Positions 1 through 22,481 of a DNA stretch of 27,993 nt are shown here, piece after piece. The DNA is taken from IMG/VR virus record IMGVR_UViG_3300010148_000086, positions 1 to 27,993 of that record; one strand, 5' to 3'. The stretch is from a virus. How positions within the stretch are numbered: the first letter of the stretch is position 1; each line of letters starts with the position of its first letter. The notes below the pieces were generated by a model. The model searched no databases, had not been told where the DNA came from, and saw only the letters and a list, made by a program, of their open reading frames with translations. The translations under genes were made by a program, and so were the position numbers.

Positions 1-996
1 CTACCAAGAAGAATAGTAAGAAGTAAAGAAGAATACTTGAGTTATGTAAAGGCTCAAAATAATAGGACTAATGTTTACACTAGTGTTTATGATTTTGCCG
101 AGTTTGCAGAAAAAGCCAAGATAGATTCATCAGTTATACTTGATAGAATCTTTCTTGATTTCGATGCTCACGGTGAAAGTATCGAGAAGGCATGGAGAGA
201 TGTTAAAGTTGTTATGACTCATGTTATTGAGAATGATTATCAACATACTCTTTTCTTTTCCGGTAGAGGTTTTCACCTGTTTATCTTTGGTGAAATTGCA
301 GACACTATTAGAAACATACAGGTCTTCTTTAGAGGCATCAAAGGTTATTTAATATCTAAAGTTGGTAGTGATAATACCCTTGATGATAGGGTCGGTCAAG
401 CAACTAGACTTAGAAGAATACCTAATACAGTAAACATGAGTTCTAAAGATGAGAACGGTAATCCTTACTTTTGCATACCATTACTTAGGACTGATTTAGA
501 TAAACAAGTCCATGAAATACTTGATTTGGCAAAGAAACCTAGAAAAATAACATTTAGAATAAGTGGTTCTGTTAAGGCAATATTCCCCGAAGCCCCTCCG
601 TTGGATGAAGTAAGTGGTGAAATAGCAGTTCCTAAAACAACAGGTTCTTTGCCTATCTTGCCTTGTTTATACAATGCTATTATGACCGAGAATCCTTCCC
701 ACATGGCTAGAGCATATCTAGTATCGTGGTATAGAGATTTACTATCCGGTTGTAATAGAGTAGAAAGCACAGAAGATAAGAACAAAATATTAGACACGAT
801 AGTAGATGAAATACGACATTTGGTAGAAACCAATGAAGAAATATGGTTAGATTGGGACGAAAGAGAAACAAGAAAACATGCTAAGTTTACAGTCTTTGGT
901 AATTATAGTAGTCCCCATTGTAAGACTGTATTGATACCTAATGGGTATTGTGTTGGTAAATGTTGGAGATACCCCGAACATGCGGAGGGAGCATAA
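1..996 (+). CDS. Archaeo-eukaryotic primase, PriS-like catalytic domain fused to PriL-type Fe-S C-terminal domain (5' end outside window)
   Basis: This protein probably makes RNA/DNA primers for viral genome replication. The frame is open to the left edge. A TTG at 37 is an in-frame candidate start, but coding-like sequence continues upstream of it, so the true start is probably outside the window. Numbering from TTG 37, the AEP motifs are LDFDAHG (D41, D43: metal-binding aspartates), SGRGFH (S75-H80, the SxH motif) and DDRVGQATRLRRIPN (residues 116-130, nucleotide-binding basic/acidic motif). Residues ~205-312 look like the PriL C-terminal domain: LPC (C210), then a helix with HMARAYLVSWY, then PHC, GYC and GKC (C295, C305, C309). 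That makes four cysteines placed to hold a 4Fe-4S cluster. A PriS-PriL-CTD fusion is known from archaeal plasmid primases such as that of pTN2. The gene overlaps the next one at its stop codon. The primase call is firm; the cluster is inferred from the cysteine pattern. Confidence 0.88.
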   Translation, partial: LPRRIVRSKEEYLSYVKAQNNRTNVYTSVYDFAEFAEKAKIDSSVILDRIFLDFDAHGESIEKAWRDVKVVMTHVIENDYQHTLFFSGRGFHLFIFGEIADTIRNIQVFFRGIKGYLISKVGSDNTLDDRVGQATRLRRIPNTVNMSSKDENGNPYFCIPLLRTDLDKQVHEILDLAKKPRKITFRISGSVKAIFPEAPPLDEVSGEIAVPKTTGSLPILPCLYNAIMTENPSHMARAYLVSWYRDLLSGCNRVESTEDKNKILDTIVDEIRHLVETNEEIWLDWDERETRKHAKFTVFGNYSSPHCKTVLIPNGYCVGKCWRYPEHAEGA

Positions 997-4770: not shown

Positions 4771-4890
4771 TTATTCGTCCTTTGAATTTAAAATAATAAA
4801 GCCTAATGGCTTATCTTCAACGAATAATGCACTAACGGTTAAATAGCCAATAGCGAAACTAAGGAGAAATAAGAGAATTAGATACATCAT
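4771..4890 (-). CDS. Small membrane protein, 39 residues, last gene of the - strand cluster
   Basis: The frame starts at ATG 4890 (tandem ATG ATG) and ends with TAA at 4771-4773. The product has a strongly hydrophobic N-terminal span (MMYLILLFLLSFAIGYLTV) and a short tail ending LNSKDE. It overlaps the end of the methyltransferase-like gene by 32 nt in another frame. One membrane span plus a charged end could be a holin-like or membrane accessory protein; no family is recognised. Being the last gene before the terminator region, it is easy to miss. Support is moderate because the ribosome-binding site is weak and the overlap is longer than elsewhere. Confidence 0.45.
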   Translation of the reverse strand: MMYLILLFLLSFAIGYLTVSALFVEDKPLGFIILNSKDE

Positions 4891-5371
4891 GTGAAATACA
4901 CCAAGCCCCTATTTTATCACAGTATGGGCTATACTTATTTTTCATAGCAAAAATATATCCATTGTAAGATAATGGATTGTCGCTTATCCAAGAATCAAAC
5001 CAACCTATATCCCAATGCGAGTTAGCAGGTATATTCCAAGTTTCTATATCTTCTTTAATTAAAGTAAACCTATTATCTTTTGCACAATAAGGCCAAACTA
5101 AATCTATGACATCTTGTGAGTTTTCTATAATAGTAACGGAAGTAAAGTTGTGATTATCAATTAATTCTTTATTTAGAAAGCCTATTCCTAGACCCGCTAC
5201 TAATATATCTCCCGTAGCATTATTCCATAGCCATTGATGTGTGTCATATTCATAATGACAATCTTTCATAATAGATTTATTCATACTAACCTTAACTAAC
5301 GAACATTCACCATTATCTATTTCTACTTTCCAATTTCCAATTTGATTTTCAGGTATATTTATTCCTAACAT
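4859..5371 (-). CDS. Phage-type class I methyltransferase-like protein (spermidine-synthase-like fold)
   Basis: This 170-residue protein shows a Rossmann SAM-binding pattern: strand plus glycine loop ILVAGLGIG at ~56-64, acidic strand end TIIEN (E83) that would bind the ribose, IKEDIETW at ~105-112, and WDIGWFDSW at ~120-128. The combination GLGxG ... WDxxWxDxW ... NKYSPYCDKIGAWC matches a family of small methyltransferase-like proteins seen in phage genomes whose substrate is unknown. No DPPY-type motif of DNA adenine methylases is present, so DNA methylation is not indicated. The start ATG 5371 follows GAGGCGATAAA, the same sequence as at 23021. The gene follows the tail-tip genes and may modify a virion or host component. 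Confidence 0.62.
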   Translation of the reverse strand: MLGINIPENQIGNWKVEIDNGECSLVKVSMNKSIMKDCHYEYDTHQWLWNNATGDILVAGLGIGFLNKELIDNHNFTSVTIIENSQDVIDLVWPYCAKDNRFTLIKEDIETWNIPANSHWDIGWFDSWISDNPLSYNGYIFAMKNKYSPYCDKIGAWCISHDVSNSLISP

Positions 5372-5380
5372 TTTATCGCC

Positions 5381-6244
5381 TCATGTTAATGTTACTTCTA
5401 CCGTGTGAAAACAAACTTCTGTTGTGCCCGAACCATTAACGGCCTCCGCTTTATATCGCAAAGTCAGCACTTCTCCTGCGACTGGATTACCTGCTCCTCT
5501 ACCCCTGCTATCAAACAAATTAAGTATTGATATTGGATTTGCCAAAAAATTAAATGCCAATACTCCCGAATTTCCACATATTCCCCAATCACCACTATTT
5601 CCTGATGATGGGTTAAGATTAGGATTTGTTTCCGAAGGGTAAAGGTAGCCAAATGTTGTAGAATTTTGTTGTGGAAAATTTGGAGTTTTAATTGCGCCAA
5701 ATCCTGCAAAAATACCTGTTCCTGTCCAATTAGAATTTGCGGCAATTAACTCATAATAATTAATTTGGTTTAGCCCATTAGGTGCTTGTAAAAACATAGC
5801 AATATTTATGAATATTTGTAGCGATTGATTAAAACCAGTAAAGGGGTTTGTTTGTCCTGTTTGTGCAGTATTCATAAATGTAATAAGGTCGGAAGCGGGA
5901 AGAGTATGGGCACTTTTTAATTCCGTACTTGAAAGAGCAGTAACCGTAGGTGGGCTAAGACCTCCTAAAATTACCGGTGTTGCATAAGACCTGTTTGAAA
6001 CAGGGGGATTAAATTGTACAAACTGAGCATTTGCATACATATATAGAAAGGCACCACCACCACTCTCTTCGCCCAATAAACTTTGAGTAGCAGAAAAATA
6101 AATTTGATTTAAAGTGGGATTAGCAGGTGCGCCACCACCACCGCCGCCACCGCCGCCACCGCCGCCTCCGGCATTAGCCTCATCTTCAGCACAAGCCCCT
6201 GCAATAGCGAGATAAATAGTAATCACACTCCTAATGCAATCCAA
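5381..6244 (-). CDS. Tail-tip / adhesin-like protein with polyglycine tract
   Basis: This is likely a distal tail or receptor-binding protein, judged from position after two tail-fibre genes and composition rich in Gly, Asn, Ser and Thr. The N-terminus has a short hydrophobic stretch (ITIYLAIAGACAEDE), followed by 13 consecutive glycines at ~26-38. The rest has many N/S/T-rich strand-like segments and few charges, typical of beta-structured fibres. No catalytic motif is seen. The start is uncertain. TTG 6244 overlaps the upstream gene by 22 nt and has a weak AGGCGG site. GTG 6226 would give a GTGA overlap like the one at 16569, but its GGAG lies only 1 nt away. I give the longer version. The adhesin role is inference. 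Confidence 0.6.
   Translation of the reverse strand: MDCIRSVITIYLAIAGACAEDEANAGGGGGGGGGGGGGAPANPTLNQIYFSATQSLLGEESGGGAFLYMYANAQFVQFNPPVSNRSYATPVILGGLSPPTVTALSSTELKSAHTLPASDLITFMNTAQTGQTNPFTGFNQSLQIFINIAMFLQAPNGLNQINYYELIAANSNWTGTGIFAGFGAIKTPNFPQQNSTTFGYLYPSETNPNLNPSSGNSGDWGICGNSGVLAFNFLANPISILNLFDSRGRGAGNPVAGEVLTLRYKAEAVNGSGTTEVCFHTVEVTLT
6131..6169 (-). repeat. GC-rich triplet tract coding 13 glycines
   Basis: Thirteen GGN codons in a row (GGC, GGT and one GGA) form an unusually GC-rich island in an AT-rich genome. Triplet repeats of this kind can change length by replication slippage without breaking the frame. Polyglycine runs are known in phage tail adhesins and fibre joints as flexible or PGII-helical segments. 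The tract lies at the start of the tail-tip protein. Confidence 0.85.
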
Positions 6245-7510: not shown

Positions 7511-7861
7511 TTATTCAACCTCTAAAAATATAAAAATTTCTACCGTTGTAGTAGAAGAGAATGGGCCAATTCCAGTAAAGTTTTGTCTTAGTAGCATGTT
7601 ATTTGAAGAGTCAAAAACTCCAACTTCTCTAATTACTTTGCCGGATATAGAAGAACCCACTACTGTAATTTTTACTTGAACTACATTTTCATCAGATTTA
7701 GTAGCAACTATAGTAGTTGTAGCACCGCTTATTGGTATATCTAAATCTGTTTGGGTAGGATAAGTGCTATTACCACCTAGTCCAACCTTAGCAGTTCCGC
7801 TACTATTTACTAAACTAACCACTTGAGTAGCCAGTAAATCTTGCATTTTATTTGCTATCAA
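7511..7861 (-). CDS. Tail-collar/fibre-attachment-like protein, 116 residues
   Basis: The sequence resembles the small N-terminal domain of phage tail-collar fibre proteins: KITVVGSSISGKVIREVGVFDSSNNMLLRQNFTGIGPF followed by TVEIFIFLEVE (residues ~65-116; shortened here by skipping repeats). In other phages this domain attaches a fibre to the baseplate and is followed by the shaft. Here it is a separate gene, directly before the fibre gene. The start is TTG 7861, overlapping the giant gene's stop (TTGA) with GGAGG 7 nt upstream. An ATG at 7846 would be too far from that site. The likely job is to join hub and fibre. Confidence 0.68.
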   Translation of the reverse strand: MIANKMQDLLATQVVSLVNSSGTAKVGLGGNSTYPTQTDLDIPISGATTTIVATKSDENVVQVKITVVGSSISGKVIREVGVFDSSNNMLLRQNFTGIGPFSSTTTVEIFIFLEVE

Positions 7862-10800
7862 AAGTCTTCCTCCAAAATTTCAGTAATCTCGGTAGCACCT
7901 AGACCTAGTGCATTGGCGTTAGTATTTAGTGTTGTTGTATTTGTATTGAGGTTTATTACACCGCCTGTCAGTCCAACGGTTCTAGCCATAATTCTAATAG
8001 GTTTTATCTTAATGAATTTCCTAAAATTAAATTGCGTTGCCGAACCATCTATAATATTTTCATTAACTCTATTGTTGGTGCTTCTATTTGCTATTGCTAA
8101 TTCAGCAAATCTATCTTCAAGACCTTTAATGTAATTTCCTAGTTCTAAATCAATAGTTCCTGTTAAAGATTGTTGCATCTGTAAAACAATAAAATCTTGT
8201 CTAGTTATGTTTTCTTCCGGTATTTCAACTGTCACTACATCTCCGGTTTTTAATTGTGATAATCCGTTATGATTAACCGAGAGTCGTAAATTAAAGTTTC
8301 TTCCGTTATGTAATCTTAATAATTCATTGGCTCTTTTATCCACTTCTTCTTGACTAGTCAATTCATCTTCAAACACTCTCATAGATTTCTTTCCTACTTT
8401 ATCTATGCTTGAAACATCTTGCCTAAACGCTTTATGAAATCTACCTAAAACTGTTATGTCATTAAACAAATCAAATTGGCTTTTTGTTTTAGAATAAGAA
8501 AATATATTATTGTCTTCAGATTTAGTTGTTAAGGCTAATTTAGAATCTGTCATATTATCATCGGATTTGATTGAGAAAGAATCTCCGTTTTCTAATAGCC
8601 TTTGTCCTTTTTTATTCATTAAAAATTCAATCGCAGTAAATAATTCTGTTCCTGTAAAATTAGGAGAAACAATATGTGGATAAGTTTCTGTGCTAGATAA
8701 AGTAAATTCAGCACCATTACTTTCCATTAAATCATTAATTAAAACATCAGTATCATATCCTATACTTACGGAAGTTCCTATTATTGCTCTCTTAGGAATA
8801 AAGGGCAATTGCTCCGGTATGGTTAATGAAATAGTTTCCGAACAAGAAACAACACCTAGTAGTTCTTCTTGATTTTCTAAATTAATATAATATTCTACAT
8901 CATTTTTCTTTTCAAATGTCACCGATGTAAAGTTTTTATTATCTCCGTCGCTAAATAACATTTTGGTTTGTCCCTCTTTTAGAATATTATTAGACATATT
9001 ACTTAAGTTTCTAACAACTAAATTACCATTATTAGACTGATTATCGGGGTCTACTATGACATACATAGATAAAACGCCTTCATTGTTGCTTTCATCGACT
9101 TGTGTTCCTTCGCTATCTTTAATATTATAGTGTCCTATTTTATCATAATATTCATCAGTATTTGGTTTTCTAGTATATCTTGAGGATAATTGATTTATTG
9201 ATATTCTATTAGGACTACCACTTGTAAAACAAGTATGGTTAGGTTGCATGATTCTATAATATCTAAATCTTTGAATATGATTCATTCTATCATCACAATT
9301 TGCCTTATCCGATGCAAGAATAGGAGTAGGCAAATCTCCACTTACTGTAATAATATGTTGTCTTGATTTACTTGTGGTGTCTATTTCGTGTGATAGAACA
9401 TAGAGTATAGAATTAGGATTTACACCATCTACACTAAATCTTGTAGAATATTCATTTCTAAAAACTCCATGACTCCCCGACCTAAAATCATTATTGCCGT
9501 TATTAGGGCTAAAGTTCTGCATCACATTTCCTGTATCATTCCACACTAAACTACCTTCTTCCGATACTAAATAACAACCTGTTAAATCTACATTAGTTAG
9601 CCAACTAGGATTTAAAGAACCATACATTTTATGCCCTACACCAAATGCTTTCAAATCCGAATCAGTCAAACATAAGACATGAACTTTAGTTCCACAAGTA
9701 GCCCATTGAGTTCCCATTATATTCCTGCTAACAATAATATCTTTAGTTCCGCTTGCATCTGCATTCTTGTCTATCTTGATAGAGTATTCAGCAGTTGAAG
9801 TTTGTTTGTTAGTGTATTGCCGTATTCTTGTTCCAATAGGTGTCTTGCTATTAGTTAGTTGAGAAATACCGCCATTGGTTTCATCACTAACTATGAAAAC
9901 TTCGCACTTTTGGTCTACTAAATCTTGAGAACCGTTGTTGAAATTACCGGCTTGTGCGCTAGTTAATCCATCTGCTTCTATGACAAAAGGTGCGGCCAGT
10001 GTTGCTTTAGCAAGGTCAGTTCCAGTAGAACTAAAAGTAACATTTTCTAATTCAAAGCCCACATCTAATTTAATAATTGGCTTTAATCCGTATGTTATAC
10101 CATCAGCGTCATTGTCATAATCATTAGCAAAGAACCCCGTTTCTTCTCTATTCATGGCCGCAAAACCACTGTGCCTAAGAGTTGTTCCGGTAGTGCTTGT
10201 TGTGGTTTTATTCATAGCAAAACCTACTCTTGTTTGTGGATTACCTACAGTGGTTGCAGTCATTTTAGAAGTTCCACTTATTCTTGTTCCGGTCATTCCA
10301 ATATCAGCCTTTGCTCCCTTTCCTCCTGCTATGCTAAATCGGCTCAAAAATACAGGCTTAAAATTCTGTAGTATTTGTCCTTGAGAATCTATTAACGAAT
10401 TGGGACTGGCGGTAGAAGATTTCCTAACTGCGGCATAGTTTGAAAATGTAATATTTTCTGTATTGTTAAAATCTCTAGCAATTGTTGGACTAGCCATATA
10501 ATCCATAAATAATGGGAATGGTGCGCCCGTTGCATATACGCTCCTCTCCGAAGGATTAGGGCTTCTACCGACTTGAAATATATTTGGTTTATATCCAAAG
10601 TTAATCGGAAGCCAAACATTTACATCTCTAGTAAAATCATATATTCCATCATTTGCAGTAAAGGGCGAACTATCTTTAAATCCATCATAAACTATTGCTT
10701 GTCCTGTCATAAAACCATGTGCTGAATGAAAAGCCGTATCTGTTTCGCTAGAATCATCTCCTCCATAACCTGCTGAATGGTCACCTCTAAATCCTCCATA

Positions 10801-13800
10801 AAGTTCTTCTGCTCCACCCGAAGCAAATACCCCGCCCTCATCAACATAAGGATTAGTAGTTCCGGCCACTTCTGCTAGTCCTCTCATTACTGCGCTTTTT
10901 AATAGGTGTATGCTAGAATCTAAGGTTATAAATTCATTATCTTTGCCCATACCCGTTATTTCAGCATTACCTGTAAGATGGCTTGCGTCAGCAATTTGTG
11001 TTTCTTCTTCTCGTATGAAAAATAAAGGGTGAGTTCTTTGAGTAGCAGGTTGGCTTCCCGCCCTATTGTTTTCAATATCTATAGGTTGTCTAAGTTGTTT
11101 TTCATCTAAACTAATAATAGTGCAATAACCGGCCTTACTGCTAGTGAAAGATGTGTAAAAGATTCTATCACTCAAGGCTACATTAGAAGTTAGGCTTTGG
11201 GGACTATATGTTCCAATATATCTTCCTTCCGAATCACAAATTATATCTCCTCCGGTCATAAAATTTGCCGCATCATCTAAGTCCAAGACAAAAGCACTAG
11301 GAGCATCTACAAATATAGCATTACTACTATTGCTACCCGAAGAAGTTAGCATTCTAACCATGTGGTAGTGGGAAAATACTGTTTTAGGAATTAACATGTC
11401 TTCACTAGGGGGGTTTTCGGGGTCAAATTGATTAAAACAAAAATCATAAACTACTTCTGTCAATCTCATTATTCCGAATCTCCTTAATGTAGATAATTCG
11501 GGAGAGTCAGTAGCAACAGAAGAAATAATACTTGTATGATAGTCTTTATCTAATCTATTAATTGTTTTTGTTTTTCCAATAACACTATCTTTAATTTCCG
11601 AATGAGGGGTTTCTTTGGTTTCTTTCAAAAACATAATATTGTAATTGATAAGTTTTCTTTCGCTATTTTGATAAAACAGACTATCCTTTCTTGTAGAAGA
11701 ATAAGGCATTGTGTCTGCATTTGAGAATAAAAACATTCTAGCCACTTTGGGGTCTATATGTTGAAACCTGTCTTTAATTAAAAAAGGACTTCTTATTTTT
11801 CCATCTAATGCCGTTCCTGTGCCTTCGTCCACTATTTGTTCTACTTCAACAGTTGGATTAGGAGGATATAGAACCATAGGAGGAGAACCGTCATGGTAGT
11901 TATTATGTCCGATTCCCATATCCAAGTTAGAAGGTATTGCCGCAGTTGCTCCTGTTCCCTGCACTGCAAGTATGAAATCACTTCTTTTTTCAAGCGTAGT
12001 CATTTCAAAGAATCTATCTCCGGTAACAGAAATAGTCCCCCTACTTTCCGGCATTCTCTTATAATCAAATTCAAAACAAGAAGCGGTTATTAACCCACCC
12101 GAATTTCCTGTTCCCGATTTTGTCAATATAAATTCTGTATTGGGGGTTTGAAATTCCGAACTAGAATATTTTACAAAAGTATTATCCGGTATATTATTAG
12201 CAATAATCATTTGACCTACTCTTGGTGAAGCAGTAGTTGATACTGCACCATCTCCACTATTGAGAGTTTGGCTTGTAGAGGCTTCTATATACTCCGAGCC
12301 ACTAAATGTTTCTATTTGATTTGTTCCGATATAACTTAGCCCCATTATATCTGTTCCAATAATATTATTTTCTAATATTCCATCTAAATAATAGCCCCTA
12401 TTAAATTTATAAGCACTAGTATAATATCCTATTCTACTAAGTTTTTCTGTGTAGAATTGAACATTATCTGTGTCTACTACTTTTGGTATTATTTTGTTGT
12501 AGTTTCCTTTCTCTATATTTAATAATCTGTATAAAGAAGTCCCAAACACTTCTTGTGAACTTCTATTAATTAGATTTTTATTATCGGTGGTTCCATCTAA
12601 ATTAAAGTTTTTAACTAAATTAGTAACACAATGTTGGTCGTGTTCTTGTAAGGCAGTTATGGGATAATTCATTAAAAGAGTTTTATTGTAGGTGTTTTGT
12701 GTAGCAAGAGAAGGGTGAAGTAAACCTATCATTTTTGCAGTATGTAAATGAGAACCATTTATGAGATTTAATTCGTGTGTTAGTTTTGAACTTTCTTTAG
12801 TTGCCCTTGTTGCTTTTGGTAGAACATTCACATCTTCTTTAGCATGACCTTCTAATTTTTCTACTAATAATCCTTTAGCAAGGAAAAAGTCTCTATTAGT
12901 TCTATTAGTTCCTGTAGCGTTTGCGCTCATCGTTATAGAATTATTACTGTTTATCTTTGTAATAGTCGTTTGCGATGGTATTGAAGTTCCGCTTATTCCC
13001 ATACCCACATATAATTTTTCTGTGGAATCTACAATTAGTGTGTTGCTTCCTGAAATAGATTTAGACATTATAGTTTCAAAACCAATCTCTCTATCTAAGT
13101 ATATCCTAGTAGCATCAACCATTGGCCCTGCAAGCCCACTATCGGGTTCTCTAAAGTTATTAAAATATATAAAACAACTACCATTGAATCCTGTTCCATT
13201 CGGTATGCCAGCATTAAATGTTATTGTATTTTCTGTAACCGAAGTTAATACTCTTAGGCTTGTCGTGCTAGAATTATTACTGAAAATTATAGCAGACATT
13301 CCTGCTTGAAGACCATTTGTTTGTTCTTTGGTTAAACCAGTAAGACTAATTGCTGCATTAGTACATTGATACATGTCTTGTTTACTATAGTGTCCTTGAA
13401 CTTGAATGATATTTCCTAAGAATTTACCATTTATGTAAATTGGTTTACCATGCAAATTTCTATTTCCTTTAATGTGTCTTGCAGAAGAAACTCCTCTATG
13501 TGTTCTTTTTATTTGAAATTGGTCGTCCTGTGCGGCTAAATCAAATGGATTGTTAAGTGGGTCGTCAGCATCATGTATTGCTACCGAGCAAACATCAATG
13601 AATCTTCTAGGCAGTGTCATATCAAAACTAATATCTCCCAAGTCCTTACTTGAGTAAGTAGTATCATTTGTATTAGCATAATTAATATCCACTCTCCCTA
13701 AAGATAAAGGAATATAAGGAGCAATAATAAGATTGGTCGCATTTGGCCCATCACCTTCAGCACTAACTATTTCAAAATCTATTAAAGTATTAATAACATC

Positions 13801-16569
13801 AAAATCAGTGCTTTCCAAAGTGCTTTGAAAATGCGAATCGCTTTTCATTTTCTTAGCATTATCTATATTATATCCTAGAGCATTATTGTTAGTATTATGA
13901 CTAGTCCCTATCAAACTACTTCCTTCCACACCCGTAGAACTAATTTGATTGCCCGATTTAAAAACAAGTCCCTTATTAGAAGCACCGTCAAGACTTGTTA
14001 AAGAATTGATATAGGTATTAGAAGCCAACGCCTTATTAAATACATAATTTTTGTTTGCTTCCTTGAATCCTGTTAAAGCCGTAGAAGCCTGTCCAACATG
14101 CGCTCTTGAAAAATCCACTAATGTAAAACTAGTTCCTGTTGCTCCTGTAGCGATTTCCCCAACATAAGCGGTCATACCGCTTTTGTATCTAACATGTATT
14201 CTATCACCTGCGGATAGAGTGATAGAACCCGAAGTTGTAATTGTATTAGTTGAAAAAGAACAAGTTATGTTTACGCCCAATCCTGTAAGTTTGTTATACG
14301 GGCTATTAGAAGAATAAATCATGTCTTCCGAGAATAAAGCATCTTTTGTTATTAATGGAGAAATAAGTTTTCTAACATTACTTCTTCCTATTATTTTTGT
14401 TTGAGTTAAACCGTTTTCTTTAAACTCTTCAATCTTTTCTATTACACCATCAATCTTTTCTAAGCAAATAGCATATTGACCTTCCATATAATCTATTTGT
14501 TTTACTCCACTATGATACAAGGTCATAGATTGAGTAGAAGTATAATAGCCGCTATCAAATAAATCTAAAGTAATTAAATTCTTTTCAGTATCTACTGATG
14601 TAGCGGTTGCGTAACTGTAAGAAAAGTCGGAAGAAAACATCTTAACAAATATATCTCCTTCTCTTGCGGCTATTGTTTTAAAGTCTGTTAAGAGGGTTTT
14701 GTCTATTTTATTAAACGCCCTTCTTTCTAATATTGCTCCTGCCTCTAAAGCATAACTACTTGAAGTAAATATTGATTCTGTTTCTAATCTGTTTTCAGCC
14801 AAAAAGGTAATCGTTTGTGTCTTTGTAGAATTGTTGAAAGTTCCAAAACTACTTACAATAAAAATTTTACTTCCAACCCTAACTTCATCACTTACATTCA
14901 AGAAACTACCTAAGTCAAATTCTGTATTAATTGTATAGGTTTGTCCCGAAGCACTTGTGGCTACGCTTGCTTTAAACGATTTAAATTCGTTAAAGTCCCC
15001 CTTGAAAACTTCATGTCTTACTCTAAGTTTATCTCCTTCTTTTAATTTAAGAGGAAGCACCCTATACGGGTCGGCTATTGTTATTTCCGATATAGTTCCC
15101 TTTTTACCAAAAGACTCCGATAATCTACAGTCAAGAACATTATATGTTAAGTTTGTTTTGTCTTTTGAATCAGCATAATGAACATATCTAGTTGGCCCTG
15201 TTAGTAAGACATTGTTTGTTCCGCTTCCTACCGATGAACTTATCATACTATCGTCAGCATCTCTCCTTGAGTTTACGGCATAGTCTTCTAAAACAGTAGA
15301 AGTATGCACTGGTTGATTTTTGAAAATAGTAGAAGCACCGAAATTGCTAAACACAAAAGCACCTTCGTTACTGTCATTAGATGTATATACTCGCTCTACT
15401 TCGTTATCTAGTGCAACTAATTTATCTACTATTTTTGCTTTAAGTGAATATTTACTACTGTCTATTATATCTTTACCGAAGTCTTGAATAGTAGTAAATT
15501 TACTAACATGAGTTAAGGTTGCAGTAGCATTTGATGTAAAATTTTCTTCTACTGCTTTTATGCTATATAGTTGTCCAAAATCTAAACCGTCTTTTTCGGA
15601 AGAAAAATCTTCAAAGAAATAAAATAAAGGCTTCGCACAATGAAAGTCATGTGTTGGGTTTTTTATTCCTGCTCCAATACAAATAGGGTGATTACTAGTT
15701 GGTATAGGTAAACTATACAAAGTAAATTTAGTTCCTTCTAATATTTGTTCGCCTAAAGGATTTTCGATTTCAAAGGAATCTCCTTCTACATCATCGGTAA
15801 GTTTTTCTGTCACTCTAGTAAAATGATGCGAATTAAAATCATCGGAATGTATCATAATAAATAAATAGTGAGTATCTAAATTAACTGTATTTATTCTAAT
15901 TCCTGTTTCTGTGGAATCTTCATAAGACTTTATTTTGAATCCTTCTGTTGTTTGTAAATTTTCATATTCCATTCCCAAAATAACTGTTTGACTACTAGCA
16001 GTCGCTATCGGTTCTTTATCTACTGTAAAAGAAGTATCGCTAAGTATTCTTTCTATTCTTGTATTTTCCGGTAAATTGGCATTGTATATGGCTTCCCCTG
16101 CGGATAAGTTACTAGTGTTTCCGCTTGATAAGGTAATCAATCTATCAAAATGCGTTATTGAACAATTAGCCAAAGTGCTTCTTCCTAGTGGAGTTAATAC
16201 TAAAGTTCCTGCATCATCGGGAGTAATCGCAACAAAGTTTCTTTTATTTTGTGATAAGACATTTGTAGCATATAACATTGGATTATTTGTCACTTGGCTT
16301 GCAGTTCTTGTGAAAGTAATAGTTTGAGTAGCGGGACTAAAACTATTAGGTAGTGTAGTTGTTGCGCCATTTGTTTCTAAAAATATTTGTGATGGTGGAT
16401 TAAGACTTGTTCCAACAACATAAGTTCCTGCCGGAATAACATCTCCTTCTACTATTTGGCCTAATCTAATTTTATCGGAATCAGCACTCGGAGTAACATC
16501 TAATCTACTAGAACCTCCCCTAGTGCATTGTAATGTAAAGGAAGAATTTTTCTTTGCTATTACTCTCAC
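7858..16569 (-). CDS. Giant baseplate-hub fusion protein, 2903 residues
   Basis: This single frame fills about 8.7 kb. The C-terminal region (~2600-2830) has the signature of a tail/baseplate hub (gpD/gp27/VgrG-like). It includes a segment with DLFNDITVLGRFHKAFR, the helix SQEEVDKRANELLRLHNGR, then SQLKTGDVVTVEIPEENI and DFIVLQMQQSLTGTIDLELG, ending near GLEDRFAEL. The N-terminal 2500 residues are strand-rich and low in Cys. They contain recurring units of the form VGMGISGTSIPSQTTITKI (~1180), VGQMIIANNIPDNTFV (~1450), LGQIVEGDVIPAGTYV (~35) and LSAGEAIYNANLPENTRI (~155), typical of beta-rich fibre or tail-needle modules. The start is GTG 16569, giving a GTGA overlap with the LamG gene behind GGAGGGAGATTT. 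It probably organises the tail tip and contacts the host surface. Confidence 0.78.
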   Translation of the reverse strand: MRVIAKKNSSFTLQCTRGGSSRLDVTPSADSDKIRLGQIVEGDVIPAGTYVVGTSLNPPSQIFLETNGATTTLPNSFSPATQTITFTRTASQVTNNPMLYATNVLSQNKRNFVAITPDDAGTLVLTPLGRSTLANCSITHFDRLITLSSGNTSNLSAGEAIYNANLPENTRIERILSDTSFTVDKEPIATASSQTVILGMEYENLQTTEGFKIKSYEDSTETGIRINTVNLDTHYLFIMIHSDDFNSHHFTRVTEKLTDDVEGDSFEIENPLGEQILEGTKFTLYSLPIPTSNHPICIGAGIKNPTHDFHCAKPLFYFFEDFSSEKDGLDFGQLYSIKAVEENFTSNATATLTHVSKFTTIQDFGKDIIDSSKYSLKAKIVDKLVALDNEVERVYTSNDSNEGAFVFSNFGASTIFKNQPVHTSTVLEDYAVNSRRDADDSMISSSVGSGTNNVLLTGPTRYVHYADSKDKTNLTYNVLDCRLSESFGKKGTISEITIADPYRVLPLKLKEGDKLRVRHEVFKGDFNEFKSFKASVATSASGQTYTINTEFDLGSFLNVSDEVRVGSKIFIVSSFGTFNNSTKTQTITFLAENRLETESIFTSSSYALEAGAILERRAFNKIDKTLLTDFKTIAAREGDIFVKMFSSDFSYSYATATSVDTEKNLITLDLFDSGYYTSTQSMTLYHSGVKQIDYMEGQYAICLEKIDGVIEKIEEFKENGLTQTKIIGRSNVRKLISPLITKDALFSEDMIYSSNSPYNKLTGLGVNITCSFSTNTITTSGSITLSAGDRIHVRYKSGMTAYVGEIATGATGTSFTLVDFSRAHVGQASTALTGFKEANKNYVFNKALASNTYINSLTSLDGASNKGLVFKSGNQISSTGVEGSSLIGTSHNTNNNALGYNIDNAKKMKSDSHFQSTLESTDFDVINTLIDFEIVSAEGDGPNATNLIIAPYIPLSLGRVDINYANTNDTTYSSKDLGDISFDMTLPRRFIDVCSVAIHDADDPLNNPFDLAAQDDQFQIKRTHRGVSSARHIKGNRNLHGKPIYINGKFLGNIIQVQGHYSKQDMYQCTNAAISLTGLTKEQTNGLQAGMSAIIFSNNSSTTSLRVLTSVTENTITFNAGIPNGTGFNGSCFIYFNNFREPDSGLAGPMVDATRIYLDREIGFETIMSKSISGSNTLIVDSTEKLYVGMGISGTSIPSQTTITKINSNNSITMSANATGTNRTNRDFFLAKGLLVEKLEGHAKEDVNVLPKATRATKESSKLTHELNLINGSHLHTAKMIGLLHPSLATQNTYNKTLLMNYPITALQEHDQHCVTNLVKNFNLDGTTDNKNLINRSSQEVFGTSLYRLLNIEKGNYNKIIPKVVDTDNVQFYTEKLSRIGYYTSAYKFNRGYYLDGILENNIIGTDIMGLSYIGTNQIETFSGSEYIEASTSQTLNSGDGAVSTTASPRVGQMIIANNIPDNTFVKYSSSEFQTPNTEFILTKSGTGNSGGLITASCFEFDYKRMPESRGTISVTGDRFFEMTTLEKRSDFILAVQGTGATAAIPSNLDMGIGHNNYHDGSPPMVLYPPNPTVEVEQIVDEGTGTALDGKIRSPFLIKDRFQHIDPKVARMFLFSNADTMPYSSTRKDSLFYQNSERKLINYNIMFLKETKETPHSEIKDSVIGKTKTINRLDKDYHTSIISSVATDSPELSTLRRFGIMRLTEVVYDFCFNQFDPENPPSEDMLIPKTVFSHYHMVRMLTSSGSNSSNAIFVDAPSAFVLDLDDAANFMTGGDIICDSEGRYIGTYSPQSLTSNVALSDRIFYTSFTSSKAGYCTIISLDEKQLRQPIDIENNRAGSQPATQRTHPLFFIREEETQIADASHLTGNAEITGMGKDNEFITLDSSIHLLKSAVMRGLAEVAGTTNPYVDEGGVFASGGAEELYGGFRGDHSAGYGGDDSSETDTAFHSAHGFMTGQAIVYDGFKDSSPFTANDGIYDFTRDVNVWLPINFGYKPNIFQVGRSPNPSERSVYATGAPFPLFMDYMASPTIARDFNNTENITFSNYAAVRKSSTASPNSLIDSQGQILQNFKPVFLSRFSIAGGKGAKADIGMTGTRISGTSKMTATTVGNPQTRVGFAMNKTTTSTTGTTLRHSGFAAMNREETGFFANDYDNDADGITYGLKPIIKLDVGFELENVTFSSTGTDLAKATLAAPFVIEADGLTSAQAGNFNNGSQDLVDQKCEVFIVSDETNGGISQLTNSKTPIGTRIRQYTNKQTSTAEYSIKIDKNADASGTKDIIVSRNIMGTQWATCGTKVHVLCLTDSDLKAFGVGHKMYGSLNPSWLTNVDLTGCYLVSEEGSLVWNDTGNVMQNFSPNNGNNDFRSGSHGVFRNEYSTRFSVDGVNPNSILYVLSHEIDTTSKSRQHIITVSGDLPTPILASDKANCDDRMNHIQRFRYYRIMQPNHTCFTSGSPNRISINQLSSRYTRKPNTDEYYDKIGHYNIKDSEGTQVDESNNEGVLSMYVIVDPDNQSNNGNLVVRNLSNMSNNILKEGQTKMLFSDGDNKNFTSVTFEKKNDVEYYINLENQEELLGVVSCSETISLTIPEQLPFIPKRAIIGTSVSIGYDTDVLINDLMESNGAEFTLSSTETYPHIVSPNFTGTELFTAIEFLMNKKGQRLLENGDSFSIKSDDNMTDSKLALTTKSEDNNIFSYSKTKSQFDLFNDITVLGRFHKAFRQDVSSIDKVGKKSMRVFEDELTSQEEVDKRANELLRLHNGRNFNLRLSVNHNGLSQLKTGDVVTVEIPEENITRQDFIVLQMQQSLTGTIDLELGNYIKGLEDRFAELAIANRSTNNRVNENIIDGSATQFNFRKFIKIKPIRIMARTVGLTGGVINLNTNTTTLNTNANALGLGATEITEILEEDF

Positions 16570-17699
16570 AAATCTCCCTCCTCAAATTTGAAATACATTA
16601 AAGTGCTATCCGAATTAGGCATTAAGGTATTAGTTAAAAACTTCTTTCTAATATCGGAAGTCATACAAATTTCATGTAATTCACCCATAAACTGTTTATT
16701 GAGTCCCGCACTATCAACACCAGTTCCTTGATTATTAGAAGCACCAATAAACAAATCTTCGGAAGCCATTGAGAAGACCCCGCTACCGGAGGAAAACTCT
16801 TGTTCTTTGATTAATATACCATTCAAGAATATTCTACCTACACTATTTTTTCTTTGTGTAAAAGTAAAAGCAATATGGAATTGATTGTTGATATAAGCAG
16901 GTTCTTTGAATGCGGGAATAAATATCTTTACTCCCGAAGATAAAGTGCTTGATGGTGCATTATCTAAAACAAAACTAACACCTGCGTTTATACCATTAGA
17001 TGCGATAGTGCCTAAAGAAGTAAAATTAAATCCATCTCTTGTAAATACCTCTTGAAATTGATGAAACTTTGTAGTGCTATCAACATTAATTGTAGTTCCA
17101 CTACTATTAGCATCAGTAGTTCCCGCATGTATATATTTTATTCTGCCGTTTTCGTCAAAGCCTTCTAATGTAGTATAAGGGGCTGAACCAAAACGCCAAC
17201 CTACTCCTTCTGTTGCAGTTATAACGGCATCGTTTGTTATCATAGTATAATCAACGCCTCCTAATTTAACTCCGACTTTTATTTTATATTCAGCAGGTTG
17301 ATTTTCATTATGAGTTGTAGAATTAACTAATGAAATGTAATAATTAGTGCTAGAGAAAATTCTCATTTCATGGGTAAACCTAGTTATGGTGCTTGCTTTT
17401 GCTAGAGGCAAGTATAGTTCGCTTTGGTTTTGTCCTCCTGTTCCTGCGTTTTGTGAATAAAGAACACTAGGCATTACCTTCTTTGTTTGTCTAGGAGTAT
17501 GCCTTCCTTGAGCCGATAACTGCCCTACTCCGTTTATGTCATAAGGAGTAATAATAGATTCAAAAGTGAATGAACCAGTATGCTCCCATATTCCATAGTT
17601 TAAATCCGGCACATTGTCGCTATAGTCTATTTTTACATGAGCATTACACATAACAGGAAACACCAAGCCTTTCTGTTTTCCTAGTAGAATGTCATACAT
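16566..17699 (-). CDS. LamG/concanavalin-like tail protein
   Basis: Residues ~275-377 look like a LamG / concanavalin A-like jelly-roll: HIAFTFTQRKNSVGRIFLNG, EDLFIGASNN, FMGELHEICMTSDIRKKF and STLMYFKFEEG follow the family order (guest strand, N-G turn, 'G-x-I-x-E/D' strand). The N-terminal part also has jelly-roll features (HTGSFTFESIITPYD), so two half-domains with an insertion are possible. LamG folds often bind glycans or surface proteins, which suits a tail-tip location. The start ATG 17699 follows AGGTGATAAT, 8 nt after the previous stop. It lies between the distal-tail candidate and the giant hub, so it is probably a structural virion protein with a binding role. Confidence 0.72.
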   Translation of the reverse strand: MYDILLGKQKGLVFPVMCNAHVKIDYSDNVPDLNYGIWEHTGSFTFESIITPYDINGVGQLSAQGRHTPRQTKKVMPSVLYSQNAGTGGQNQSELYLPLAKASTITRFTHEMRIFSSTNYYISLVNSTTHNENQPAEYKIKVGVKLGGVDYTMITNDAVITATEGVGWRFGSAPYTTLEGFDENGRIKYIHAGTTDANSSGTTINVDSTTKFHQFQEVFTRDGFNFTSLGTIASNGINAGVSFVLDNAPSSTLSSGVKIFIPAFKEPAYINNQFHIAFTFTQRKNSVGRIFLNGILIKEQEFSSGSGVFSMASEDLFIGASNNQGTGVDSAGLNKQFMGELHEICMTSDIRKKFLTNTLMPNSDSTLMYFKFEEGDL

Positions 17700-17707
17700 A
17701 TTATCAC

Positions 17708-18370
17708 CTATGGAGCAATCAAAGCAGTTTGGAACTCTAAAGAGAAACTCAATTCAAAAGTTTCTGCGCTAATATCACAACTAAAACTTCTAATGAAGCC
17801 TGTTAGTCCTGTATCTGTTTCAGTATCGGGGAAAGAAGATATTTTAGCAGGAACTCCTAAATTGTCTAAAGCGTTATTGCTTCCCCTTGAAGCAAAATTA
17901 AAAGGAACTAAAGTTCCTTCGTCTCTATCATCTCCCTCTACAATAGTAGATAAACTTTTTTTACCAGTTCTTTGAGCATAATTTGAATCAACAAATGAAG
18001 GTATTAAGACAACTAATTCATTGAATGCTTGATTCTTAGCAAATCCTGTTGAATCAACACCGGAAGCAATCATTTGTGCAATTTCATGTGCAGTAAATAC
18101 ACTAGTGTTAATATCTCCACCATCAGTATGAGTTTTCCTAACCACTTGGTCTAATATTACTCCTTGAAGTGATATTGTTTTTTGAGCCATTCCTAAATCT
18201 AATGCCGCAGTTATTGACTCACCAGTAGCAACACCGGACAAAGGAACTTCAAAAGAAGGTATAGTTTTACTAACACTTATGCTAACTTGTGTCGTTAATA
18301 ACTCAATGACATTTATGTTTAATCCATCACTTGAGGAATGTCTTTGTAGTTTAAGATATACACTTCCCAT
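17708..18370 (-). CDS. Distal tail / baseplate protein candidate, 220 residues
   Basis: It lies directly after the tape measure, where phages place the distal-tail (Dit) or gp53-like baseplate protein. Residues ~25-75 (SISVSKTIPSFEVPLSG, then KTISLQGVILD) resemble the start of such proteins, where a 'P-x-P ... I-x-L-x-G' pattern forms the first strands. The C-terminal ~30 residues (GFIRSFSCDISAETFELSFSLEFQ) are a strand pair consistent with a tube-like fold. No enzyme motif is seen. The start ATG 18370 has a clear AGGTGATGATAA site. The role is inferred mainly from gene order. Confidence 0.55.
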   Translation of the reverse strand: MGSVYLKLQRHSSSDGLNINVIELLTTQVSISVSKTIPSFEVPLSGVATGESITAALDLGMAQKTISLQGVILDQVVRKTHTDGGDINTSVFTAHEIAQMIASGVDSTGFAKNQAFNELVVLIPSFVDSNYAQRTGKKSLSTIVEGDDRDEGTLVPFNFASRGSNNALDNLGVPAKISSFPDTETDTGLTGFIRSFSCDISAETFELSFSLEFQTALIAP

Positions 18371-18376
18371 TTATCA

Positions 18377-20161
18377 TCACCTAAATAATCCGCTTGAGGA
18401 TATTCTCCTTGTTATCTTATTGCCTATTTCTTTACCTAATTGTTCAGCCAACTTAGGAACATTAGGAAGACCGCCATGAACTGTTATATTGAATGTATTA
18501 TTTATCGTATGACCCATCATTTTCTTGCTTGCGTCATTGGTGTGAACTCTTGAACCTGCGGGTAATTTAACTAATTCCGGCCCTCTTTCTCCAACAAGAG
18601 TTGTTTCTCCACTACCTACTATACCTCCGGTGGCTCTACCTAGTATCTTATCTTTAGCACCACCTAAGAAATTTTTAACTCCTTCTTTAGCCGCTTCAAA
18701 CGCTTTACCTATTCTGAACTCCTTAACAACTTTATACAAGAGAGCAGTTATTCCTGCTACAATAAGAACTGTAAATAATATAGGAAGTGCATAAATAGCC
18801 GCTATTTCCATAAGTTTTATTGCTAGATATTTAATAAAATATGCGGCAAGCAATAGAAGACCGGCTTTCATAAGAATTTCAAACACTTTATTTCGTAAGT
18901 CTTTATCATTTTTTAATTTCTCTATGAAATCTATTATGCTATAAAATGCCGCAACTGCTAATGCAAATAGTGTTTTTAATATTGCCGCAACTGCTAATAT
19001 TCCTATGCCTATTATATTTTTAACTATCTTTTCTCCATGTTCTATGAACTTATATATATCTCCATTAACAACAGCCATTATCATTCCTATAATACTTTTA
19101 GCCGTATCAAGAACTAAAAATCCTATTCTCTTAAGGTCTTCAAGGACACCAAATTCTTGTATAAATCCAAAGGCTTCATATGCTATTTTAGCAAAGGCTA
19201 AGAAAGCAACAATACCTAGCATAACCATAACTAATACCTTAAAGGCATAATTTAATATTGGCCTAGCCATTTTACCAACACCTAACATAAATTTTTGGTA
19301 TCTAAGGCTAAAATTAGCAAGTTTTTGTCTTGACTTATCAAAGAAAAGTCTTTTCTTACCTTGTTTAACTAATTGCTTGAGTCTTTTTTTCATAGGGTCT
19401 TTTTTTCCTTCAAAATTAGATTTTCCAAATAAAGCAAAACCCGCTTTCGCTTTCTTTCTATCTTCTTTGACTTGGTTTCTAGCCTTCCTCATTCCTATTT
19501 TTCTTTGTCTCTTTTCTTTTGGGTCTGTTAAATCTCTTATTTTAAGCCCCTCTTCAAATCTTGCGGCTTTTCTAGCCTCTACAAATGTTTTTCCTACCTT
19601 TTCAGCCTTTTGAGCAACTTCTTCTAACCCTTCTTGGAAAGCAAAATTTGGACTACGACCTAATAATATCGCTTTGTTATAAGCAACTGTGTTTTCTACT
19701 GCTTCTTTTAAATCGTCATTAGTCTTTTTTCTTACGCTTCTTAGTGTGTGTAAGTATTTTTGTTTTGATATTTCCCCTTTTTCTAGTTTTTCTTGTTCTT
19801 TTATTAATCCTTTATTTAATTTTATAGTTGCCGCCATTTGCATTTTTAGTTTTTCTCTTGATTTAACTAAATTAATTACTTTGTCGTCTGCTTCTTTTTG
19901 TGCTTTACTATTTTTTTGAGAAGCCTGTTCTATCAAAGCCAATGAATCTACAAATGCTCTAACTTTGTTTTGTAGTTTCCATATAGGACTTCCCGATACT
20001 ATTCTTGAAAAAATAGTCCATTTTTTGCCCGAACCCGATACATTATCGGACATTTTGATAAGTCGTTTAGTAAGACCTTGAAACTCTAGTCCTGCCTCAT
20101 AGGAAACAGAATTTAAGTCCTTCAAATTGTCTATAAGTTTGACAACTTCATCATCGGCCAT
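18377..20161 (-). CDS. Tail tape measure protein
   Basis: The tape measure sets tail length and is ejected with the DNA. The N-terminal ~300 residues are charged, helical and coiled-coil-like (KAQKEADDKVINLVKSREKL; KEKRQRKIGMRKARNQVKED). Residues ~300-490 hold several long hydrophobic helices (VLVMVMLGIVAFLAFA; LAVAAILKTLFALAVAAFY; IYALPILFTVLIVAGITALLY). The C-terminal ~509-545 has the tape-measure hallmark GETTLVGERGPELVKLPAGS followed by RVHTN. Length 594 predicts a tail of roughly 85-90 nm at 0.15 nm per residue, if the whole protein were helical. The start ATG 20161 lies 1 nt after the end of the frameshifted chaperone, a usual arrangement. Confidence 0.92.
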   Translation of the reverse strand: MADDEVVKLIDNLKDLNSVSYEAGLEFQGLTKRLIKMSDNVSGSGKKWTIFSRIVSGSPIWKLQNKVRAFVDSLALIEQASQKNSKAQKEADDKVINLVKSREKLKMQMAATIKLNKGLIKEQEKLEKGEISKQKYLHTLRSVRKKTNDDLKEAVENTVAYNKAILLGRSPNFAFQEGLEEVAQKAEKVGKTFVEARKAARFEEGLKIRDLTDPKEKRQRKIGMRKARNQVKEDRKKAKAGFALFGKSNFEGKKDPMKKRLKQLVKQGKKRLFFDKSRQKLANFSLRYQKFMLGVGKMARPILNYAFKVLVMVMLGIVAFLAFAKIAYEAFGFIQEFGVLEDLKRIGFLVLDTAKSIIGMIMAVVNGDIYKFIEHGEKIVKNIIGIGILAVAAILKTLFALAVAAFYSIIDFIEKLKNDKDLRNKVFEILMKAGLLLLAAYFIKYLAIKLMEIAAIYALPILFTVLIVAGITALLYKVVKEFRIGKAFEAAKEGVKNFLGGAKDKILGRATGGIVGSGETTLVGERGPELVKLPAGSRVHTNDASKKMMGHTINNTFNITVHGGLPNVPKLAEQLGKEIGNKITRRISSSGLFR

Positions 20162-20912: not shown

Positions 20913-22481
20913 TCACCCCATCAAACCTGCATGAGTAATAATTGTGCAACCATTAGCCTTTAATCCTCTAGGCATTATAGTGGCCTCTACTGTTATTGGC
21001 CCTTTATCATCGGGTATAGTAAAGTTAGCCGCACTAGTAAAAGCATTCTCAAAAACTAATTTTATTTGTTCTCCGTTGCTCTTATCAAACTGCAAGGTAA
21101 TATCATTTGTTGTATCTTCTGCTTGATTTAGCAATTCTCTAAATAATCTATCGTCAGTAACTAGGGCAGTAAAAGTTAATTCGTATGTTCTTTGTGCAGG
21201 TATTCCTTGTTTAACCGATTTACTGCCCACTCCAACAAATCTTTTATCTTGTATGTTATTGTTGATAGTTAAAGTAAAGTTAGTTATTTTCAAGAAAGTA
21301 TGTCCAAAGGCACTAAAAATCCCATCACTGAAAAAGAATGGTTCTAGGTGTGTGGCTTGAGCATTCTTTCTATTGCTGAAATTTTCTACATCAGCAACAT
21401 TGTTTCTAGCATACATTTCTTCATCAATGTCTAAAGCCTTTACCGCACTACTGTTTAAGTCCATAGTCATTTTAACTTCTTCATTTTCATTAGCAGTTAT
21501 TGTTAGAGTATTGACTCTATTTCCTCTAGCAATACGGACAAAGTTATGACTTTCTGTTGCGGCTGAATCTATATCAGTTAGTAGGTTTGTGTCAGTTTTT
21601 GAAATAGATTGTTCTAAAGCAAATGAAGGGAGTTTTGAAGTGTCTTGCTCATTTATAGTATAACTAATGAAATTGGTTGCGAAGTTATTAGCACTTAAAG
21701 ATGCTAATGCTACTAAATCACTTGCGCTAGAATCAGTAGGCATCAAAGGAGGAGTAATTTTAGTTCCTATTGACCTATAAAATATAGGGCCATCTTCAAT
21801 ATGTGCGCTATCGTTATGTATGAAAGTATTAGTATCTGCGCCATTTACTGTAAATATATCAAAATTACTTCCACTTGTCACTGCGCTTCTAATTCCGGCA
21901 GGAACAGTTGTAGCGGTGCATCTTCCAAGAGCATAATATAACCAATGGCCCTGATTAGCAATCAAAGCAATATTTCCACCACTAGCAGTTTCTATTCCTT
22001 TATACTGATGAGTAAAGTTTCTTGTTCCACCTAAATTTAAATTCAATTGTTTCATCTCTACTTCTAAGTTTGGGAATGATGCTGATTCTACTAAACCAAT
22101 AAAATTATCAGCATTTAATGTGGATTTGCTACTTTGTGCAGGAGCAGGACATGGTGCGCCATAGCCTCTAATAACATAGTAGTCATTATTTGAAGTTGAT
22201 TTTGCAGTAGGGGTAAAGGTTATTGTAGCCGCAGAAGCAGAACTACCCGAATTACCAGTAATAGTATGAGTTGATAGTAATACATTAGTAGTGTCAGCAA
22301 ATCTATCAATAGTGCAACCAACATATAAGTCTTTTATTAAACGGAAATGTGCTTGGTCGCCATGAAAAGTAATTGTTGATTCATCGCCCGTTGTTGTTGT
22401 CTTTTTAATATAATAATCTACTTCGGGAACAAAACTTAGTGTCGCTCCACTTCCTACAAATATTTCTTCATTTACTACCAT
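20913..22481 (-). CDS. Major tail tube protein
   Basis: The C-terminal ~180 residues carry the pattern of siphophage tail tube proteins: FLKITNFTLTINNNIQDKRF, then RTYELTFTALVTDDRLFREL, then DITLQFDKSNGEQIKLVFEN, then GPITVEATIMPRG. This is a set of alternating strands with the inner-lumen hairpin and the final strand that closes the ring. Near the N-terminus, NLEVEMKQLNLNLGGTRNFT with IALIANQGHWLYYALG fits the tube-fold start with an inserted domain. At 522 residues it is larger than many tube proteins, so extra decoration domains are likely. The start ATG 22481 follows GGAGAGGGGAGATGAAAGC. The following genes (chaperones, tape measure) agree with the assignment. Confidence 0.82.
   Translation of the reverse strand: MVVNEEIFVGSGATLSFVPEVDYYIKKTTTTGDESTITFHGDQAHFRLIKDLYVGCTIDRFADTTNVLLSTHTITGNSGSSASAATITFTPTAKSTSNNDYYVIRGYGAPCPAPAQSSKSTLNADNFIGLVESASFPNLEVEMKQLNLNLGGTRNFTHQYKGIETASGGNIALIANQGHWLYYALGRCTATTVPAGIRSAVTSGSNFDIFTVNGADTNTFIHNDSAHIEDGPIFYRSIGTKITPPLMPTDSSASDLVALASLSANNFATNFISYTINEQDTSKLPSFALEQSISKTDTNLLTDIDSAATESHNFVRIARGNRVNTLTITANENEEVKMTMDLNSSAVKALDIDEEMYARNNVADVENFSNRKNAQATHLEPFFFSDGIFSAFGHTFLKITNFTLTINNNIQDKRFVGVGSKSVKQGIPAQRTYELTFTALVTDDRLFRELLNQAEDTTNDITLQFDKSNGEQIKLVFENAFTSAANFTIPDDKGPITVEATIMPRGLKANGCTIITHAGLMG

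Follow-up and report, generated by a model that had tools for sequence, protein, structure and literature searches.

An unusually large, conserved tail hub protein with a central segment that is replaced between close relatives of an uncultured virus

The window, i.e., the whole stretch of DNA analysed here, is an entire IMG/VR virus record of 27,993 bases. It encodes a tail hub that is genuine, conserved and unusual in its size. The open reading frame (7858..16569, minus strand, as are all of its segments below) is intact, starts with GTG, encodes 2903 aa and accounts for 8712 of the 27,993 bases (31%). The initial annotation had described a single 2903-residue ORF taking up about one third of the window; this was borne out, and the single chain is conserved in 88 ORFs carrying two conserved blocks. 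The giant is best explained, with moderate probability, as a siphovirus (non-contractile tail) hub of the T5 pb3, lambda gpJ and GTA kind with an extreme hdII insertion. Block 1 (residues 456-770) would correspond to hdI with the first part of hdII. Block 2 (residues 2560-2903) would supply the last part of hdII, then hdIII, hdIV and a C-terminal tail, and the residues between them would be an outsized hdII insertion, with small beta modules of ~60 residues accreted into loops of the scaffold. Receptor binding by the insertion may move hdII and hdIII and thereby open the ring, as in T5, and recombination that swaps the insertion would change the bound surface with the tail-docking part staying fixed. 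The position of the insertion between hdI and hdIII follows only if block 1 is hdI.

In the available text of PMC10038345, T5 pb3 contains two tail-tube domains (hdI and hdIV) that form the last tail ring, with a linker made of hdII and its insertion, and in both T5 and GTA the hdII insertion is what closes the tube. For lambda, the accessible part of PMC10721106 describes this scheme too, gpL providing hdI and gpJ the remaining domains. The RcGTA hub (g13) with the megatron (g15, 1304 aa) and lambda gpL with gpJ have a large hdII-insertion region (PMC10721106) like the one proposed for the giant, whereas in these systems the hub domains are distributed over at least two genes and the giant is one chain. 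The giant also differs from T5 pb3, as its insertion of ~1790 residues has accreted modules and is replaced between relatives, and the C-terminal FNIII/central-fibre extension of pb3 has no room in it. The whole T5 pb3 chain has under 1000 residues.

The giant lies in a tail module with the following order (all coordinates given are on the minus strand): tail tube protein (20913..22481; PF18906 Phage_tube_2, E 3.8e-14), tape measure protein of 594 aa (18377..20161; phrog_1538, E 2.6e-6), a 220-aa protein at the site of the distal tail protein (17708..18370), a 377-aa protein directly upstream of the giant (16566..17699; counterparts of 364-424 aa in the relatives examined), the giant, a collar or tail-fibre N-terminal-like protein of 116 aa (7511..7861; phrog_2137, E 1.5e-5) and two more proteins. 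The gene-size order was unchanged in the relatives examined. The giant lies close to a tape measure gene called by PHROG and a distal tail gene called by position only; Pfam and PHROG searches gave no credible family match for the 220-aa protein and no match for the 377-aa protein. At full length, the giant itself found nothing credible in Pfam, PHROG and PDB. In tblastn searches against 50,697 phage records, the whole giant and a C-terminal piece of the relative L065 (relatives are designated by L numbers) had no match, while two other C-terminal pieces gave nothing better than E 9-10. The PMC literature searched, which does not cover subscription journals, yielded no account of a protein of this kind. 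The tape measure itself (18377-20161) shared 67 and 36% identity with L001 and L002, respectively, while its flanking genes shared 90-98%.

Relatives were collected in six scans of viral contigs; from the last three, the 80 top-ranking of 88, 146 and 234 confirmed stretches, respectively, were used. At least 95 distinct complete ORFs carried either conserved block, and 88, including the window, carried both. Among the matches listed, two-block ORFs (n=88) ranged from 1994 to 2903 aa with a median of 2280, the window being the longest, and only seven ORFs in four loci had one block. Of 91 distinct complete ORFs with block 2 among the matches listed, 88 also contained block 1, and for the remaining three it lay in the adjacent ORF. 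Since the other block sits in an adjacent ORF, the gene was considered broken at three one-block loci, where block 1 and block 2 occupy separate ORFs: L048 (2549-6154 and 6194-11026; same record as L023), L153 (from 1479 and from 4511) and L175 (from 5409 and from 6779). L194 (from 7870, adjacent ORFs) was also listed as a broken giant, and all four cases may represent a sequencing error, a pseudogene or a real split hub.

Local alignment with the distant relatives L064 and L065 revealed four conserved runs, at residues ~160-990, 1252-1393, 1592-1789 and 2323-2903. The N-terminal extension (residues 1-455; 15205..16569), with two repeated modules inside, was alignable from about residue 160 even in distant L063-L065. 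A BFVD fold search with the N-terminal model retrieved A0A516LI86_1 (E 4.5e-30), A0A516LT38_1 and A0A516M0A8_1, with E values from 4.5e-30 to 3.4e-17; relatives of the giant are therefore already present in a public structure library.

By profile comparison, block 2 (344 aa; 7861..8892) is homologous to the distal half of known hubs. The phrog_1887 profile ("tail protein") matched window positions 8158-8748 at profile positions 436-644 of 670 with E 5.1e-7 for the 344-aa piece, by which the hub-like C-terminus proposed in the initial annotation is confirmed at the sequence level. Together with phrog_21793, this places the homologous hdIII/hdIV region of hub proteins (T4 gp27, T5 pb3 and lambda gpJ type) in the giant. 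At E up to 1, block 2 was matched by phrog_21793 in all 20 members (best E 1.2e-8; 6.6e-5 in the window) and by phrog_1887 in 12 of them, and the best E for phrog_400 on block 2 was 3.5e-10. Across 42 records, phrog_1887 was detected in 21, window included, always within profile positions 432-658 of 670. The YqbQ-type hub family PF24032 (YQBQ) was detected in seven, three of them over the cut-off and the window not among the seven. YQBQ matches always fell within positions 135-293 of 294, the second half of the hub, and positions 1-134 were not found beside them in the 42 records. The giant thus resembles YqbQ-type, phrog_1887 and phrog_21793 proteins through significant profile matches of block 2 and differs in that, of profiles spanning 294-670 positions, only the later part is matched. 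Block 2 ended 0-2 residues from the C-terminus in all 88 two-block ORFs among the matches listed.

The C-terminal AF2 model (residues 1704-2903) had a mean pLDDT of 42.6, too poor for a strict fold call. Within it, a hub barrel at residues 2754-2820 (8110..8310; pLDDT 41-59), the putative hdIV, aligned in this poor model to residues 658-718 of T5 pb3 (9ioz_L) with Z 6.3 and rmsd 2.4 over 61 residues; Z values of 6-8, here and for block 1, may arise by chance. The same barrel matched the Sf11 hub (Z 6.0), VgrG1 (Z 4.9) and an unrelated PilZ protein (Z 6.0). No Foldseek row of the C-terminal model reached E 0.001, and PDB profile searches with both blocks gave nothing credible.

Block 1 (14260..15204) is conserved together with block 2, and weak structural resemblances suggest that it may hold hdI, the first tail-tube-like hub domain, followed by the start of hdII. 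The N-terminal AF2 model (residues 1-1200) had a mean pLDDT of 52.4. Inside block 1 it was confident (pLDDT in the 80s) only at residues ~521-590, 611-630 and 761-790, while residues 681-760 had a pLDDT of 25-63. The confident part corresponds mainly to a small beta-barrel at residues 530-618 (14716..14982; VIA-align of the AF2 model). Its matches included the JBD30 baseplate chain 8rk3_b (Z 7.7, rmsd 2.4, 75 residues), the Chi tail tip 8vjh_B (Z 7.0, rmsd 2.1, 69 residues) and T5 Dit pb9 (Z 6.5, rmsd 2.8, 75 residues), and EF-Tu and serine-protease barrels matched as well with Z of about 6. Residues 590-823 of the Sf11 hub chain aligned to 70 residues spanning 476-738 (Z 6.2, rmsd 3.1), which does not single out hdI because block 2 matches the same hub stretch. 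In Foldseek searches of the PDB with the N-terminal model, six of the ten top rows were tail-tube, baseplate, Dit or tail-tip chains (Mystique, JBD30, lambda twice and T5 Dit twice) and the others were proteases and MrkH, with no row at E 0.001. Block 1 matched no PHROG family below 0.005 and had no credible PDB match as a profile, and hhalign found no mutual similarity between the two blocks.

The lack of sequence evidence for hdI in block 1 from PHROG and PDB profile searches also fits a different layout, in which a complete hub occupies the C-terminal part (~2300-2830), the rest is an N-terminal adhesion extension and block 1 is an adhesion or structural domain. In the profiles phrog_1887 (670 positions) and phrog_21793 (482), the homologous domain is itself C-terminal, which shows that a hub domain can follow a long N-terminal region, and the conserved run at 2323-2903 in distant relatives leaves space for hdI at ~2330-2560. 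However, block 1 is found as regularly as block 2, YQBQ positions 1-134 do not turn up beside the match, and the replaced part in two pairs of relatives described below (L235/L238 and L227/L229) starts near the block 1 end and stops near the block 2 start; this layout is considered unlikely, if not strongly so. Because YQBQ is matched only at 135-293 of 294 and block 1 co-occurs in 88 of 91 block-2 ORFs among the matches listed, a hub interrupted by a giant insertion is probably the better description than a hub fused to an N-terminal region. Of the initial proposal of a hub at the C-terminus after ~2500 residues, the hub-like C-terminus stands on the phrog_1887 match, while the confinement of the hub to that end was not confirmed.

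On the interrupted-hub reading, the giant insertion covers residues 771-2559 (8893..14259) and is replaced between close relatives. The gap between the best profile matches of the two blocks is 1790 residues in the window and 1060-1796 in the 88 ORFs among the matches listed. At the N-terminal border, residues 739-876 (13942..14355) resembled in the model part of the LKA1 gp49 tailspike (4ru4_B 248-436; Z 8.8, rmsd 7.7, 105 residues), a point of similarity with RcGTA, where the sugar-binding domain of the hub resembles the gp49 insertion domain according to the accessible portion of PMC7296036. Between the window and L001, identity was 94.5% in block 1, 97.7% in block 2 and 83.9% in the insertion. 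The differences include two hypervariable stretches, residues 1001-1150 (13120..13569; 30-52% identity to L001 per 50 residues) and residues 1701-1850 (11020..11469; 42-74% per 50 residues, with the minimum of 42% at 1751).

Among 19 pairs with both blocks at or above 93% identity, five had an insertion at or below 84% (L227/L230, L227/L229, L235/L238, L248/L121 and L001/window), representing four independent cases, and in none of the 19 was the insertion clearly more conserved than the blocks. L235 and L238, two contigs from separate metagenomes, shared 98.7 and 100% identity in the blocks and 71% in the insertion. Identity of their codon-aligned DNA was 99-100% as far as about residue 660, fell to 95% at 661-720 and to 41-92% per 60 codons at 721-2040, and returned to 99-100% from 2041; the end of block 1 is at 750 and the start of block 2 at 2039. 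The DNA flanking the replaced part, which on each side includes part of the giant, was 99.5% identical over 4.6 kb and 98.9% over 6.8 kb. Comparable neighbour proteins, including the downstream 637-aa protein, were 99.5-100% identical, and one predicted upstream ORF had no partner where the shorter locus ends. In L227/L229, the blocks were 97 and 96% and the insertion 59% identical, with a switch near residue 600 and back near 1800 (block 1 end 599, block 2 start 1757). In L121/L248, the blocks were 100 and 99% and the insertion 81% identical, and mainly residues 1321-1800 within the insertion differed. Breaks near both block borders were therefore found in only two of the four replacement cases (L235/L238 and L227/L229), while the changed part was internal to the insertion in L121/L248 and window/L001. 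Of 21 non-overlapping pairs with 70-96% identity, 16 showed lower conservation in the insertion than in either block. Among the five exceptions, the insertion was more conserved than both in L075/L221 and L122/L218, and the latter (96% against 77 and 90% in the blocks) could, from the sequences, represent a shared cassette in different backgrounds.

As the insertion was replaced in four independent pairs with both blocks near-identical, it appears to act as a cassette for specificity that can be exchanged. A segment that is replaced while its scaffold stays fixed is what one would expect of a specificity determinant, and the middle segment probably decides which cells the virus attaches to, judging from the alignments. 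The earlier suggestion that the host contact resides in a single-chain tail tip is supported and becomes stronger with this exchange between close relatives. Part of the replacement could reflect chimeric assembly. A rival reading, compatible with either hub layout, takes the middle as mainly a tube-closing, membrane-inserting plug or a structural cup, places specificity in downstream fibre genes and attributes the divergence to drift or chimeric assembly. The T5 hdII insertion does carry the plug according to the available text of PMC10038345, and the second and third genes downstream of the giant also vary, at 76 and 27% identity between the window and L001. Yet the downstream 637-aa and 146-aa proteins of L235/L238 were 100% identical with the insertion at 71%, and replacement recurred in four independent pairs, which makes this reading unlikely. 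A 287-aa protein (window 5381-6244), with a poly-glycine tract near its N-terminus, shared 27-29% identity with its positional counterparts in L001 and L002 and is a possible second specificity factor. A 170-aa protein at the end of the tail module (window 4859-5371) had weak methyltransferase similarity (PF00398, E 0.007, under the cut-off).

The recurring "VGMxISGxxIP" unit reported from the initial reading proved to be a real module of ~60 residues with four copies in the window protein, at residues 15-72 (16354..16527; 25 bits), 138-199 (15973..16158; 45 bits), 1172-1224 (12898..13056; 58 bits) and 1443-1490 (12100..12243; 21 bits). The region of the second copy (model residues 128-206) matched 8eci_1 of Arthrobacter phage Bridgette with Z 10.1 and rmsd 3.2 over 76 residues at 22% identity. 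Copies were counted above 10 bits; on shuffled and reversed sequences the module profile gave none above this threshold, and two between 5 and 10 on the reversed ones. Since the profile was trained on the giants themselves, the following counts are partly given by construction: modules occurred in 39 of 49 complete giants with 0-7 copies each, the ten shortest having none, and 177 copies were found over the 88 two-block ORFs among the matches listed, 33 of which had none. Giant length correlated with module copy number (Spearman 0.87, n = 49, relatedness not corrected). Copies sit at roughly a dozen distinct positions, in keeping with accretion into loops.

Taken as a lineage trait, these observations may describe a large uncultured lineage of marine, probably archaeal, tailed viruses. 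In it the hdII insertion, a tube-closing plug in other systems, would have grown to 1000-1800 residues and would now be the chief means of receptor binding. It would consist of accreted beta modules and be exchanged either as an entire cassette (two of four cases) or partially (two of four). We put this forward tentatively, as a nearly even prospect; it would represent an internal rather than C-terminal host-range route within one hub chain. The tail tips of such uncultured marine viruses are little known. If this is true, the host specificity of a widespread lineage could be read from one cassette in one gene, natural recombinants would mark the cassette borders and make virus-host pairing testable from metagenomes, and the tube-closing insertion of siphovirus hubs could evolve into the adhesin itself. 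HFTV1 gp44, described in the accessible part of PMC12494034 as a trimeric archaeal-siphovirus hub thought to bind surface glycans, is a comparable system and differs in that its predicted carbohydrate-binding domain lies at the C-terminal end.

The 94,947-base record of L001 encodes PolB, two proteins with ATP-dependent ligase domains, a Cpn60 chaperonin, a UvrD helicase and a terminase. Its structural and replication genes lie mostly on opposite strands, a layout that matches the ICTV description of Magrovirales (PMC10768690, PMC12999244). Magrovirales are further marked by PolB, an ATP-dependent ligase, a chaperonin, archaeal PCNA and primase, and genomes of about 90-110 kb. A chaperonin was present in three of eight records of relatives, and the window is a fragment without PolB, ligase and chaperonin genes. 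PCNA_N (PF00705) was detected in 0 of 13 and DNA_primase_S (PF01896) in 0 of 14 records, some of them fragments, and MCM matches were weak and under the cut-off in 4 of 13. The nearest named relatives of PolB were haloarchaeal viruses (E 9e-23 to 1e-21), closely followed by T4-like cyanophages (2e-20), while the chaperonin was nearest to Bacteroides phages. Because PCNA_N and DNA_primase_S were not found and the nearest named proteins are mixed, the virus is termed "magrovirus-like" only, and an archaeal (magrovirus-like) host is plausible. A scan of genome contigs for relatives of the giant returned none, and thus no host or provirus copy.

An archaeal host would also suit the S-layer-piercing device offered in the initial annotation, whether contraction-driven or needle-like, and non-contractile archaeal HFTV1 has been proposed to cross the S-layer with its tail, perhaps in the manner of a needle (PMC12494034, available text). 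The data speak against such a device for the giant: none of 14 records, of which seven exceed 80 kb and some are fragments, contained Phage_sheath_1 (PF04984), while control genomes were positive in 3 of 14. In addition, only 83 residues follow the hub barrel, which ends at 2820; these are too short for an OB-fold and a spike, so a spike is excluded from the giant chain, and a piercing role is regarded as very improbable. At one end of the window (1-996), a 331-aa protein contains a motif reminiscent of archaeo-eukaryotic primases, while PF01896 gave no match to it. Positions 1322-2032 encode an ERCC4 and HHH nuclease whose sole relative in the phage collection is Methanobacteriales virus vir080, represented by two records.
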